DNA from: Acidobacteriota bacterium
Lineage (GTDB): Bacteria > Acidobacteriota > UBA890 > WLXD01
Assembly: GCA_012103255.1 (NCBI GenBank)
Contig: WLXD01000007.1
Location: forward strand, 124,001 to 188,000
Reading direction: 5' to 3'
Length of the DNA stretch: 64,000 nucleotides
The notes under the pieces are model-generated. The model did not search any database. It had not been told where the DNA came from and was given only the letters and a program-made list of their open reading frames with translations. A program made the position numbers and the translations under genes. This document shows, one piece after another, positions 11,521 through 16,740 of this stretch (position 1 is its first letter; each line of letters opens with the position of its first letter).

Positions 11521-11577
11521 GACCTCAACACCGTCTGCCCGGCCATGGTCGCATCGCCTTTTCTCGAGTTCTGTTTT

Positions 11578-11603
11578 ATTTCTTGACGAGTCAGTCAAGA
11601 AAT
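11578..11603. promoter_or_regulatory. TetR operator, copy 1
   Basis: ATTTCTTGAC and GTCAAGAAAT form perfect 10-bp arms around a 6-bp centre, ending 14 bp before the TetR start. A second 26-bp site with the same spacing and most of the same bases precedes the SDR gene (12223-12248). Position and length are as expected for a TetR dimer-pair operator. Confidence 0.75.
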
Positions 11604-11617
11604 AGTAAGTTCTGCCC

Positions 11618-12199
11618 ATGCGAGGAAGACCGCGGGAATTCGACAAAGACCAGGCGCTCGGCGAAGCCATGCGTGTGTTTTGGCGTCAGGGGTTCAACGG
11701 CACGGCAGTAGCCGACCTCGAAGAGGCGATGGGCCTCGGTCGGCAGAGTATCTACAACGCCTTTGGCGACAAGGAACAACTGTTCGATGCCGCCCTCGAG
11801 CTGTACCTGGACGCCGGCATGAAACCGATCACCGAAGTTCTCGACCGTGAGGGCTCGGCGTTGGGCAACGTGCTGGACGTGCTTGAGATGTGGGAGAACC
11901 ACCATGGCGACGGCAATGGCAACGGCTGCCTGCTTGCCAATTCGATCTGCGAGCACGAGGCCATGCCGGGTGAACGAGATGCACTGTTTCGTGGTGCGGT
12001 TGAGCGTCTGGAGGGTGCGTTCGCTCGGGCTTTCGATAGGGCGCAGGAACAAGGCGAACTGAGTGCAGCGCGCGATCCCGCCGCACTCGGCCGACTGTTC
12101 GCAACGCTGGGTCAGGGCCTTTCCGTCATGAGCCGCGTCCAGAGCCCGGAATTCATGATCGGTGCCATTCAGGGCGCCCGACAGTTGATCACCGCATGA
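11618..12199 (+). CDS. TetR/AcrR family transcriptional regulator
   Basis: 193 residues. The N-terminal DNA-binding domain (~1-55) reads RGRPREFDKDQALGEAMRVF then GFNGTAVADLEEAMGLGRQS and IYNAFGDKEQLFDAALELYL, the normal TetR three-helix pattern. The ligand domain contains GCLLANSICE, a stretch conserved in one TetR subgroup that often sits next to short-chain dehydrogenases. The gene lies between two copies of the same 26-bp palindrome, which indicates that it represses itself and the following SDR-SRPBCC genes. The inducer is unknown but is likely a substrate of the neighbouring enzyme. Confidence 0.92.
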   Translation: MRGRPREFDKDQALGEAMRVFWRQGFNGTAVADLEEAMGLGRQSIYNAFGDKEQLFDAALELYLDAGMKPITEVLDREGSALGNVLDVLEMWENHHGDGNGNGCLLANSICEHEAMPGERDALFRGAVERLEGAFARAFDRAQEQGELSAARDPAALGRLFATLGQGLSVMSRVQSPEFMIGAIQGARQLITA

Positions 12200-12218
12200 A
12201 TCGGATCGGTGTTTTTTT
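12190..12218 (+). terminator. Possible weak terminator after TetR
   Basis: CACCG and CGGTG form a 5-bp stem with a 12-base loop that overlaps the TetR stop codon, followed directly by seven T residues. The stem is short, so termination would be partial at best. Confidence 0.3.
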
Positions 12219-12222
12219 GCTT

Positions 12223-12248
12223 ATTTATTGACTCGACAATCAACAAAT
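12223..12248. promoter_or_regulatory. TetR operator, copy 2
   Basis: This site aligns without gaps to the 26-bp site at 11578-11603, sharing the ATTT ends, the TTGAC arm and the TCAA/AAAT arm. Its own arms ATTTATTGA and TCAACAAAT differ at one pair. It ends 9 bp before the SDR start codon, so a bound repressor would block that promoter. Confidence 0.7.
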
Positions 12249-12257
12249 GTAGACACA

Positions 12258-13004
12258 ATGAAATTCGACAAGAAGATCGCGGTAGTGACCGGCGGTAATA
12301 GCGGCATCGGGCTCGCCTCAGCGCGCCGCCTCGTTGAGGGCGGGGCACGAGTTGTGCTCTTCGGGCGCAACCAGGAAACGCTCGACGCGGCGGTTGCGGA
12401 ACTGGGCGAGCAGGCGACAGCTGTGCGGGGCGACGTGGCCCGACTCGAAGACCTCGATCGGCTCTACGAGACGATCGCCGAGATGGGCGGCGGCATCGAC
12501 GTCCTGTTCGTGAATGCGGGCGTCGCCCGTACGGCGAACATCAACGAGGTTGACGAGCAGCTGTTCGACAGCTTGTTCGACATCAACGTGAAGGGCGCCT
12601 TCTTCACGATCAAGAAGGCTCTGCCCCTCTTCAACCAGGGCGCGTCGGTCGTCCTCACGGGATCGGTCGCCGATCAGTTGGGTACGCCAGGCATGAGCGT
12701 GTACTCGGCAACGAAGTCGGCCGTGCGGAACCTCGCCCGTTCGATGTCGGCCGAGCTGCTCGAGAGTGGCGTCCGCGTCAACGTCGTCACGCCCGGCCCG
12801 ATCGAGACACCGATCTTCGGGCGTCTCGGCCTCGAACCGGAGCAACTCGACGTCATGGCCGGCCAGATCATCGGACGGGTGCCGATGCAACGCATGGGTC
12901 AAGCAGACGAGGTGGCACGAGCTGTTGAGTTCCTGGCCTCAGCGGACTCCAGCTACATGTGCGGATCGGAAGTCGTCGTTGACGGCGGCATGTCGCAGAT
13001 CTGA
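12258..13004 (+). CDS. Short-chain dehydrogenase/reductase (SDR)
   Basis: 248 residues, the classical SDR length. The cofactor motif is VVTGGNSGIG (residues ~9-18), followed by the GRN segment after the second strand, which suggests NADP preference. NAG appears in VNAGVAR (~91-95). The catalytic Ser is in the VLTGSVADQ stretch (~138-141) and the YSATK pair at ~152-156 supplies Tyr and Lys. PGPIETPIFGRLG near ~185 and a C-terminal VVVDGGMSQI complete the family features. The ATG at 12258 is used because the frame upstream runs through the operator. It is followed after 25 bp by the SRPBCC gene in an apparent operon under TetR control. Confidence 0.93.
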   Translation: MKFDKKIAVVTGGNSGIGLASARRLVEGGARVVLFGRNQETLDAAVAELGEQATAVRGDVARLEDLDRLYETIAEMGGGIDVLFVNAGVARTANINEVDEQLFDSLFDINVKGAFFTIKKALPLFNQGASVVLTGSVADQLGTPGMSVYSATKSAVRNLARSMSAELLESGVRVNVVTPGPIETPIFGRLGLEPEQLDVMAGQIIGRVPMQRMGQADEVARAVEFLASADSSYMCGSEVVVDGGMSQI

Positions 13005-13029
13005 CTCAACAACTCCCCGGAGCATCAAC

Positions 13030-13512
13030 ATGCATGAAGTAAGTGTGCACAGAGACATCGCCGTCCCCGCAGAGACGGCCTGGGAACATCTCAGCGCATT
13101 CGGAGACGTCTACAAGATCCACCCGTTTGTCACCCGGTCGTACGTGACTGGTGAGGACGCGACTGGGCTCGGCGCCACGAGGGTGTGCGTCCTGGACGAC
13201 GGCAACGAGATCGCTGAACAGATCACCGAATACCGCGAAGGCCACGGGTACACGGTCTCGATTACCGACCCGGGACCGTTCCCACTGAGGGAGGCCGTGG
13301 CCCGTATCGATGTCGAGCCACGTGCGGCTGGCTCCCGCGTCTCGATCAACATGCGGTTTCAGCCGAAGTTCGGGCCGCTCGGTTGGCTGATGGCCAAGGC
13401 GATGATGCGGCGAGAGTTCGGTCGCCGACTTGGACTGCTTATCGAGGGTATGGAGGAGCACGCACAAACGGGACGGCCGGTGGGCGCTGCCGTGGACGAC
13501 CTGGCCGCCTAG
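13030..13512 (+). CDS. SRPBCC family (polyketide cyclase-like) protein
   Basis: 160 residues beginning MHEVSVHRDIAVPAETAWEH, the usual first strand and helix of the START/Bet v 1-like fold. GLGATRVCVLDDGNEIAEQI and GSRVSINMRFQPKFGPLGWL follow, the latter being common in SRPBCC proteins of the SoxR-reducing/polyketide-cyclase group. The fold binds hydrophobic ligands in a cavity. The product is cytoplasmic with no signal peptide. It is the last gene of the TetR-SDR-SRPBCC operon and probably handles the same hydrophobic compound as the SDR. Confidence 0.85.
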   Translation: MHEVSVHRDIAVPAETAWEHLSAFGDVYKIHPFVTRSYVTGEDATGLGATRVCVLDDGNEIAEQITEYREGHGYTVSITDPGPFPLREAVARIDVEPRAAGSRVSINMRFQPKFGPLGWLMAKAMMRREFGRRLGLLIEGMEEHAQTGRPVGAAVDDLAA

Positions 13513-13537
13513 CACCGCTGTTTATCAAGCTACAGAG

Positions 13538-13569
13538 GGGGCCGCCGGTTCACGCCGGTGGCTCCTTCT
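13538..13569 (+). terminator. Terminator of the TetR-SDR-SRPBCC operon
   Basis: An 11-bp stem, GGGGCCGCCGG paired with CCGGTGGCTCC (two G-T pairs), with a six-base loop and a short T-containing tail, starting 26 bp after the SRPBCC stop. The tail is weak but the stem is strong. Confidence 0.55.
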
Positions 13570-13622: not shown

Positions 13623-13663
13623 TGTATAACGATGCTATACGTTATGCCTAACGTCGCTATACA
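13623..13663. promoter_or_regulatory. Operator region of the PadR-ADOP fusion gene
   Basis: An outer imperfect inverted repeat runs from TGTATA (13623-13628) to TATACA (13658-13663). Inside it TAACG (13627-13631) and CGTTA (13640-13644) form a second repeat. The region ends 15 bp before the ATG at 13678. Its AT-rich content contrasts with the high-GC surroundings. It is the likely autoregulatory target of the PadR domain encoded next. Confidence 0.6.
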
Positions 13664-13677
13664 AACAGTGAGAAGCC

Positions 13678-16600
13678 ATGACGACCTCCGTACTGGGACA
13701 GTTCGAACACCAGGTCCTTCTGAGCATCCTGCGGCTCGGGTCCGAGTCCTACAGCGTCGCGATCGTCCTCGAACTCGAGGCACAGACGGAGCAAGAGGTC
13801 GCCACGTCGAAGGTTTTCGTGGCGCTCAAGCGCCTCAAGAGCAAGGGCATGCTCGCCGATCGCATGGTGGATCCCGGTGAGGATGGCGGACACGCACGGC
13901 GGTACTTCAAGCTCACCGACGCGGCGATCGACGCCATGCGCGCGTCGCGCAAGGCCTACCTGAACCTGTGGGACGGCGTCGAATCGCACCTGGACGAGGG
14001 CGGAAAAAAGGACATGACTAGCTCCACGCACGGATTCCCTCCCTCGATCGCCCGCCGACTGCTCACTCTGATCGTCGGCCGCGCCCAGGCGCTCCAGATC
14101 GAGCCGAGCCTCGACGAACTCTTCGCACATCGCGTGCAACGCGATGGCGTCCGCCCCGCCCGGCTCTGGTACTGGCGTCAGGTGATCGGGTTTGGCGCGC
14201 GGCGGCGAGCGCTCGAAAGCGCACGCGCGGAGGAGGTCGCCTCCGGCCTGCACGGCTCGGGGATGAAGCCTGGGGGCGGGCCCTTCTCACCGGCAACGTG
14301 GACGCGCGACATCCGCCTCGCTGTGCGGTCACTACGGCGCCAGCCGGGCTTCGCCGCGCTGGCCATCGGCACCCTTGCCCTGGGCATCGGCGCCAACACC
14401 GCGATCTTCAGTGTCTTGCACGGCTCACTCCTCCGCCCGCTGCCCTACCCTGAGCCGGATAGGATCGTGTGGCTGTCAGACTCGCATCCAAACTTTGATG
14501 GCGCCGGGGCGAACCAGTCGGTGCCGAACCTGCTCGACGTCCAAGAAGCCACAGCGCAGCTGGAGTCGCTGGCGCTCTACAAGATGCGCAGCGGCAACAT
14601 GACGACGGCCACGACGCCTGAGCGCGTGCGCATCATGTACGCCTCACACGAACTGCTCGGAGCGCTCGGCTCACCAGTGCAACTCGGACGCGACCTGCTC
14701 CCGGAGGATGACGCTGCAGGTGGCCAGCCCGTCGTGATCCTCTCGGATCGCATCTGGCGTGCGCGATTCGCCGCGGATCCCGGCATCGTGGGACAAACGG
14801 TGGAGGTCGACGCGCGCCCTGTTCTCGTCGTGGGTGTCGCCGCGCCAGACCTCTACTTCCGCGGGGATCCGCAGCTGATCATGGGCCTGCAGCACCTCGG
14901 TGAGGACTTTCATCGCGGCAACCGCGGACATTTCTCGGTCGGTCGGATGGCACCCGGAACAGACCTCGACGCGGTCAACTCGGAGTTGGCTGGAATATAC
15001 GCGGGCCTAGCGGAGGAATATCCAGACGCCAACGAGGGCTGGACCGGTGTGGCGGAGCCGCTCACGGACGTCCTGGTTGGTCGCAACCGATCTTCGCTCT
15101 ACCTCATGGCTGGAGCGGTTGGCCTGGTTCTGCTGATCGCATGCGTCAATGTCGTCAACTTGATGCTGGTGCGCGCTGAATCCCGTACGCGTGAGTTCGC
15201 CGTGCGCTATTCACTGGGAGCGACACGCAGCCGCTTGCTACCGCTCTTCCTCGGCGAGGGCGTTCTGTTGGCCGTGAGCGGAGGCGCACTCGGAATTCTC
15301 GCCGCGGTGTGGGGGGTCGACCTCCTTGTGAGCTTGTATGGCGGATCACTCGCCCGATCGGCCGACGTGCATGTCAGCACCGCAGCTCTGGGGTTCGGAC
15401 TCACCGTCTCGCTGTTCGTCGGGGTGATGATCGGACTGGTTCCCTTGCTCCGGTCGCGACCGGACCACGTCCACGAGACCCTCAAAGAAGGCGCCCGCGG
15501 TTCGTCGGCGGGCAACGGGCGCCTCGGCCGAGCGCTCGTCGTCGTGGAAGTTGCCCTCGCGGTCCTGATCGTTGCGGGCGCGGGGCTGCTCATCCACAGC
15601 GCCTGGAAGCTACAAGCGGTAGACCTGGGCCTGGACGGCGAAGAACAGGTCCTCACTTTCCGGGTATCGCTCCCGAACGCGATCTACGACAACGCGACTT
15701 CGATCGACGAATTCCACCAGGGACTCCTTGCCAGCCTGAGCCGTGTGCCCGGAGTTGCGGCCGCGGGCGTGGTGAATCGTCTGCCACTGCTCGGCGGTGA
15801 CAACCTCACGGTTCGGGCTTTCCACAATCCGGAACTCGAGGCCAACTTCACGTCATATCGGATGGTCGACGGGGAGTACTTCGAGGCCGCTGGACTTCGG
15901 TTGATATCCGGCCGCTGGCTCGACTCGACCGATCTCACGACGGCAACGCCAAGCGTTGTGATCAACGAGAATCTGGCCCGGCAGTTGTTCGCGGGCGAAG
16001 ACGCTGTGGGGCAACGTCTGGTCGACTCCATGATGCCGCCAGGTACTCCGGGAGTGTTCGAGGAAGGCCTCGAAATCGTCGGAGTCGTTTCAAGCGTAGT
16101 GAGTCGCAGCGCCGACGATCCGGCGCCCCCGGCCTACTACTACCCCTTCGCACGCGCCCTGGATATCCTGCGACGCTACCCTGAAATCCTCGCGAATGAA
16201 TCGATCGGCATGAGTGCGCTGGTGCGCACCGACCAGGATCCGAACGCGATCGTCCAGGACGTGCACCGCGCGGTGACCGCTCAGGACCCGGCCGTGCCGA
16301 TCTTCGAGATCCGTACGCTCGAGGAACTCGCGCTCGACCGTCTCGGCACGAGAGGCTTCGCCATGTCGCTCTTCGGCGTCTTCGCCGGACTCGCCTTGTT
16401 GCTCGGGGGCGTCGGGATCTACGGCGTGATGTCGTACGGGGTCGCGCAGCGTGCCCGAGAACTCGGCGTCCGGATGGCACTCGGCGCTGACCGCGCCGCC
16501 GTGATGCGCATGGTGCTTCGTGAGGGCCTTCGCCTAACCTTGCCAGGCCTTGCCGTCGGACTCCTCGGAGCTCTCGCCGCAGGCCAGGTTCTGGGCACCT

Positions 16601-16740
16601 TGCTCTTCGAGGTCAGTGCCCTCGACCCGGTGACCTACGTTGCCGTGGCCGGCGTTCTCGGGGTCGTTTGCCTCGCCGCCGCCTACGTGCCGGCGCTCCG
16701 CGCCACGCGGGTCGATCCGATCACCTCGATCCGCAGCTAG
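13678..16740 (+). CDS. PadR domain fused to ADOP permease
   Basis: 1020 residues in one frame. Residues 1-112 are a complete PadR winged helix (VLGQFEHQVLLSILRLGSES, then SKVFVALKRLKSKGML and a wing with GGHARRYFKLT). Residues ~113-210 are a permease prefix domain (SIARRLLTLIVGRAQ, ARLWYWRQ). The rest is a full ADOP permease: first helix ~220-245, FtsX bundles at ~475-610 and ~895-1010. In the window's other PadR-ADOP pairs these are two separate genes, three of them overlapping at the stop/start. Here the equivalent ATG (14014) is in frame with the PadR part and preceded by GAGGG (13996-14000). The junction contains A AAA AAG (14004-14010) in the zero frame. The product may be a membrane-tethered regulator, may be processed by frameshifting, or may reflect a homopolymer error. 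The last codons overlap the convergent S9 gene by four bases. Confidence 0.85.
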   Translation: MTTSVLGQFEHQVLLSILRLGSESYSVAIVLELEAQTEQEVATSKVFVALKRLKSKGMLADRMVDPGEDGGHARRYFKLTDAAIDAMRASRKAYLNLWDGVESHLDEGGKKDMTSSTHGFPPSIARRLLTLIVGRAQALQIEPSLDELFAHRVQRDGVRPARLWYWRQVIGFGARRRALESARAEEVASGLHGSGMKPGGGPFSPATWTRDIRLAVRSLRRQPGFAALAIGTLALGIGANTAIFSVLHGSLLRPLPYPEPDRIVWLSDSHPNFDGAGANQSVPNLLDVQEATAQLESLALYKMRSGNMTTATTPERVRIMYASHELLGALGSPVQLGRDLLPEDDAAGGQPVVILSDRIWRARFAADPGIVGQTVEVDARPVLVVGVAAPDLYFRGDPQLIMGLQHLGEDFHRGNRGHFSVGRMAPGTDLDAVNSELAGIYAGLAEEYPDANEGWTGVAEPLTDVLVGRNRSSLYLMAGAVGLVLLIACVNVVNLMLVRAESRTREFAVRYSLGATRSRLLPLFLGEGVLLAVSGGALGILAAVWGVDLLVSLYGGSLARSADVHVSTAALGFGLTVSLFVGVMIGLVPLLRSRPDHVHETLKEGARGSSAGNGRLGRALVVVEVALAVLIVAGAGLLIHSAWKLQAVDLGLDGEEQVLTFRVSLPNAIYDNATSIDEFHQGLLASLSRVPGVAAAGVVNRLPLLGGDNLTVRAFHNPELEANFTSYRMVDGEYFEAAGLRLISGRWLDSTDLTTATPSVVINENLARQLFAGEDAVGQRLVDSMMPPGTPGVFEEGLEIVGVVSSVVSRSADDPAPPAYYYPFARALDILRRYPEILANESIGMSALVRTDQDPNAIVQDVHRAVTAQDPAVPIFEIRTLEELALDRLGTRGFAMSLFGVFAGLALLLGGVGIYGVMSYGVAQRARELGVRMALGADRAAVMRMVLREGLRLTLPGLAVGLLGALAAGQVLGTLLFEVSALDPVTYVAVAGVLGVVCLAAAYVPALRATRVDPITSIRS
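14004..14010 (+). other. dnaX-type slippery heptamer at the PadR/permease junction
   Basis: The codons GGA AAA AAG place A AAA AAG in the X-XXY-YYZ register, the same heptamer that drives -1 frameshifting in Escherichia coli dnaX. A -1 shift here would meet TAG at 14019-14021 after three codons and release a free ~115-residue PadR. Loss of one A (transcriptional slippage or a sequence error) would end PadR at TGA 14015-14017, overlapping the permease ATG at 14014. Frameshifting is a prediction; only the sequence layout is seen. Confidence 0.5.

Follow-up and report, generated by a model that had tools for sequence, protein, structure and literature searches.

The PadR-permease junction

The window, the whole stretch of 64,000 nt analysed here, contains on its forward strand a single open reading frame of 1020 aa (13678-16740) in which a PadR regulator is joined to a permease of the ADOP family (Table 1). 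The permease part belongs to this family according to its match to TIGR03434 over aa 210-1019 (807.8 bits, curated cut-off 622.3). The segment of the PadR part matching PF03551 scored 26.2 bits, just below the gathering cut-off of 27 bits, and PDB PadR chains matched this part at E about 1e-4. With 17.4 bits against padR_acidobact TIGR03433 it stays below the curated cut-off of that family (101.8 bits). An orthologue search covering 60 genomes found orthologues, 65% identical, in two further genomes of the genus. The PadR of a congener orthologue reached 40.3 bits against PF03551, and compared to the congeners PadR is strongly conserved, with a dN/dS of about 0.12-0.15.

Table 1. Features at the PadR-permease locus; positions refer to the window
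Feature	Position	Strand	Basis or remark
Operator dyad 1, TATAACGATGCTATA, putative PadR site	13625..13639	+	exact match to TATARCGNYGYTATA; kept in both congeners
Operator dyad 2, CCTAACGTCGCTATA	13647..13661	+	2 mismatches; perfect in both congeners
PadR regulator part of fused frame	13678..14013	+	Pfam PadR aa 14-82; PDB PadR chains
GAGGG, Shine-Dalgarno-like	13996..14000	+	3 nt 5' of heptamer, 13 nt 5' of permease ATG
A AAA AAG heptamer; A6 run fuses frames	14004..14010	+	sequence; absent from both congeners
ADOP-family permease from ancestral start codon	14014..16740	+	TIGR03434; congener alignment of start and N-terminus
TGA stop, +1 frame, overlaps permease ATG	14015..14017	+	sequence
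TAG stop, -1 frame	14019..14021	+	sequence

At the junction, the codons read GAC GAG GGC GGA AAA AAG GAC ATG ACT. The run of six adenosines (A6, 14004-14009) places the heptamer in the 0-frame slippery register (GGA AAA AAG), and an internal in-frame ATG follows at 14014-14016. The fused frame, the register of the heptamer, the -1 stop, this ATG and the GAGGG element were all found as described in the first-pass annotation. Pairing with the anti-Shine-Dalgarno sequence in the stretch upstream of the permease ATG is about equal to that at neighbouring permeases.

The two frames are joined only when the run has six A's or differs from six by three. With five, PadR would end at the TGA (present numbering) that overlaps the permease ATG, and with seven at the -1 TAG. 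Either length restores a layout in use in this genome, an NTGA overlap for A5 and an ATGNNTRA overlap for A7. The proposal that one A fewer would give the layout of coupled pairs in the window was borne out, as the pairs 4222-4557/4554-7235 and 30463-30834/30831-33497 show ATGA overlaps. PadR-ADOP pairs number dozens in the window and the genome, mostly with start-stop overlaps. At least 66 ADOP permeases and 150 PadR-like matches in 4.8 Mb of this genome point to an extreme paralogous expansion.

Orthologues and other PadR-permease pairs

Both congener loci are syntenic with the present one, sharing the same upstream permease and, in one case, the same downstream peptidase. In both, PadR and permease are separate genes: PadR ends in HLDESGT or HLDESGS followed by TGA, and after 4 nt the permease starts with ATG. 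Neither of the two carries an A run or the heptamer at the junction, and the distance from GAG to ATG is 16 nt in both versus 15 nt here. The start codon and the N-terminus of the permease align with both congeners; hence, the internal ATG, proposed earlier as a permease start, is regarded as the ancestral one and the two-gene state is taken as ancestral. Separate genes lacking the heptamer in relatives had been named beforehand as the outcome that would speak against a programmed fusion, and this is the arrangement in both congeners, the only two available. A scan of genome contigs gave one distant relative only.

Between the upstream permease and padR, the window contains genes for a TetR regulator, a short-chain dehydrogenase and a polyketide-cyclase-like protein (11521-13560). 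In one congener (L147) about 140 bp lie between the two matches, which indicates either a lineage-specific insertion here or a loss in the congener.

We scored 86 distinct PadR-permease junctions from the source genome and its relatives. The permease was offset by an NTGA-type overlap in 55 and otherwise in 19, whereas the remaining 12 were in phase. An in-frame stop was present in 11 of these 12, leaving the junction in the window as the sole intact stop-free one (genes apart in 85 of 86). A phylum-wide search was performed with a profile made from P0001 and in-frame PadR-stop-permease pairs; among the 395 genomes with matches, with two candidates scored in each, in-phase pairs were found only with a stop between them, and a conserved fusion was dropped as an explanation. 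A literature search on PadR-permease fusions yielded nothing relevant.

Pairs in the same frame, separated only by the stop and 0-9, rarely more, bases, occur at several loci (L014, L045, L048, L100, L106, L121, L124, L127, L133 and loci from the phylum search). The in-frame stop was TAG in 10 of 11 cases in the first survey, which suggested stop readthrough. This idea was abandoned because TAG, TGA or TAA are used phylum-wide and the query itself had been built from TAG cases.

The survey of PadR proteins in the same genome revealed a second stop-free PadR-permease frame of 1017 aa (C6:253282 in the survey; C6:253192-256242; L145:693-3743). Its padR is frameshifted internally: the C-terminal half is read in a different frame as far as a TGATGA at the start of the permease, and the N-terminal half is by chance in phase with the permease. 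This second fusion looks like the accident of an indel.

Proposed frameshifting at the heptamer and the length of the A6 run

According to the first-pass annotation, a dnaX-type -1 shift at A AAA AAG would set the ratio between a tethered regulator, a free regulator and a free permease. The heptamer does conform to the slippery pattern X XXY YYZ, the -1 stop is close by, and the start codon that lies 5 nt ahead of this stop could allow reinitiation. However, several other features argue against such a device. A conserved site is among the features of programmed frameshifts, while singletons are treated as likely indel mutations or errors (PMC3711429), and the heptamer is missing from both congener orthologues. 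The search for a downstream stem that had been recommended returned none: the stretch 14004-14060 has a folding energy of -2.7 kcal/mol (z +2.6), and each of 200 shuffles folded at least as well, which makes this stretch unusually unstructured; of the four stretches folded, none was better than its shuffles. In dnaX-type sites, an upstream Shine-Dalgarno sequence is located about 10 nt before the slippery site. No such sequence was found at about 10 nt before the heptamer here, the only similar element being GAGGG at the wrong spacing of 3 nt.

The genome encodes tRNA-Lys(CUU) (C1:325426) in addition to tRNA-Lys(UUU) (C7:101068), and AAG therefore has a cognate decoder. E. coli has tRNA-Lys(UUU) alone, a condition that favours such frameshifting but is not strictly required. 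A second lysine tRNA should lower frameshifting, yet some IS elements rely on motifs of this kind in genomes that have both tRNAs (PMC4066793). The organism's own dnaX was considered as proof that the heptamer is used, and was discarded because A runs of at least five are missing from the dnaX locus. AAAAAAG occurs in 43 copies on both strands of 4.81 Mb, compared to 54 for the reversed control; hence, the heptamer is rare locally and not enriched in the genome. ARAGORN located a tRNA-SeC with the anticodon TCA on contig C8 (L164:895-992), and the organism may therefore read some TGA codons as selenocysteine.

Frameshifting at dnaX amounts to about 50% (PMC5009743), whereas those E. coli heptamers without stimulators that were classed as shifty reached only 2.1-10 times the background, itself about 0.055% (PMC4066793). 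With no stimulators, a tRNA-Lys(CUU), no heptamer in the congeners and no intact fusion elsewhere, a dnaX-type programmed frameshift yielding three products is not supported, and we consider it very improbable.

The length of the A6 run was assessed from 70 sampled exact A6/T6 runs, for which coding frames were called with a codon-usage model and indel rates were derived from the sampled loci. Clearly intact coding frames contained 22 of the 70 runs, compared to one run breaking a gene. Moreover, 69 ADOP frames of the same genome (178.7 kb) were uninterrupted over their matched part, and within these 178.7 kb no A run of at least five occurred. Because most A6/T6 runs and ADOP frames are intact, the assembly appears mostly accurate and the A6 may be real.

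Single-base frame breaks in otherwise intact genes do exist elsewhere in the assembly, the padR of the second stop-free frame being one case. A gene for a purine permease (Xan_ur_permease, C7:380185-381379), otherwise intact, falls into two frames, the break being exactly at a T6 run. Two ADOP genes (C1:1422600-1423500 and C2:615600-616600) have a frame break near the 3' end, beyond which the conserved C-terminus is read in the next frame; a G5 run lies near one of these breaks and a G4 run near the other. These breaks could be errors or, alternatively, mutations and real pseudogenes. Considering how rare true fusions are on the one hand and the indel rate of the assembly on the other, we give a little better than even chances to an assembly error at the junction, the true run being A5 or A7, and a little less than even chances to a real recent indel; in our judgement, the assembly error is slightly ahead.

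Proposed operon regulation and comparison with known systems

Just upstream of padR, the two dyads of Table 1 follow each other at a spacing of 22 nt. No exact match to TATARCGNYGYTATA was found in 299 of 305 loci, exact matches being confined to the present locus and its orthologues. The restriction of the double dyad to these loci suggests autoregulation, with PadR repressing its own promoter via this putative operator. We envisage a small PadR repressor and a duplicated MacB/FtsX-type permease, encoded by two genes in the ancestral layout. A PadR dimer would sit on the two dyads and repress its own promoter; once repression is lifted, the operon would be transcribed and the permease translated through coupling to PadR termination. 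In the assembled sequence, the junction differs from the ancestral one: its A6 run puts the two frames in phase, and the length of this run is a singleton event of one base.

Thus, the locus is, with high confidence, an ordinary PadR-ADOP operon, autoregulated and translationally coupled, which differs by one base at the junction and has no programmed frameshift device. Since the close relatives keep the genes separate, a recent mutation of one base or an error of the assembly most likely accounts for the fusion, and not a designed switch. The first-pass annotation had offered a recent mutation or homopolymer error as its fallback, and the two-gene congeners together with the indels elsewhere in the assembly favour this reading.

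If the A6 run is correct, termination coupling would be lost and most ribosomes would make a lineage-specific fusion, a membrane-tethered PadR-permease that could sense the state of transport and, by binding the operator from the membrane, control its own promoter, while basal slippage on the A6 would free only a trace of PadR. The frame is open, PadR and the operator are still conserved, and most A6 runs of the assembly lie in frame. The fusion could also be fixed in a lineage beyond the two congeners compared, at 65% identity. Against it, neither the 86-junction survey nor the phylum search returned another intact fusion, both congeners have the ancestral permease start and the two-gene state, and the permease ATG is still present here; therefore, we regard a real fusion as unlikely. 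Even less probable is a contingency locus, in which slippage during replication or transcription on the A6 would toggle the operon between fused and separate forms. Loss or gain of one base in the run would each switch the layout, but the run is short and the tract is absent in the congeners. Many genomes show selection against slippage at runs of about nine A/T, and transcriptional slippage on six A's is unlikely (PMC1088944); the minimum run length used by GeneTack for phase variation is 7 nt (PMC3711429).

The reading as an ordinary operon implies that at a start-stop overlap one base readily suffices to make a regulator and the transporter coupled to it look fused; automatically annotated fusions of this kind should therefore be backed by relatives or reads. 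If real, the fusion would mean that a coupled repressor and transporter had been converted naturally into a membrane regulator made in one piece, and it would offer a clean test case for whether an ADOP permease can act as a transport-coupled membrane regulator.

Membrane-tethered one-component regulators are known, such as those of the ToxR/CadC type. A real fusion would resemble them in its cytoplasmic winged-helix DNA-binding domain preceding membrane segments, whereas a whole duplicated permease would form its membrane portion. With the E. coli dnaX frameshift the junction shares A AAA AAG in the slippery register and a near -1 stop; it differs by the lack of a stem, of a correctly spaced Shine-Dalgarno sequence and of conservation, and by a second lysine tRNA for AAG. 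In gene order, strand, families and permease start, the locus matches PadR-ADOP pairs (PF03551/TIGR03433 beside TIGR03434), except that here the length of an A run joins the two frames. It is also similar to the singleton frame transitions classified by GeneTack as indel mutations or sequencing errors (PMC3711429), being unconserved and located at a homopolymer with intact relatives, but the indel here joins two genes rather than breaking one.
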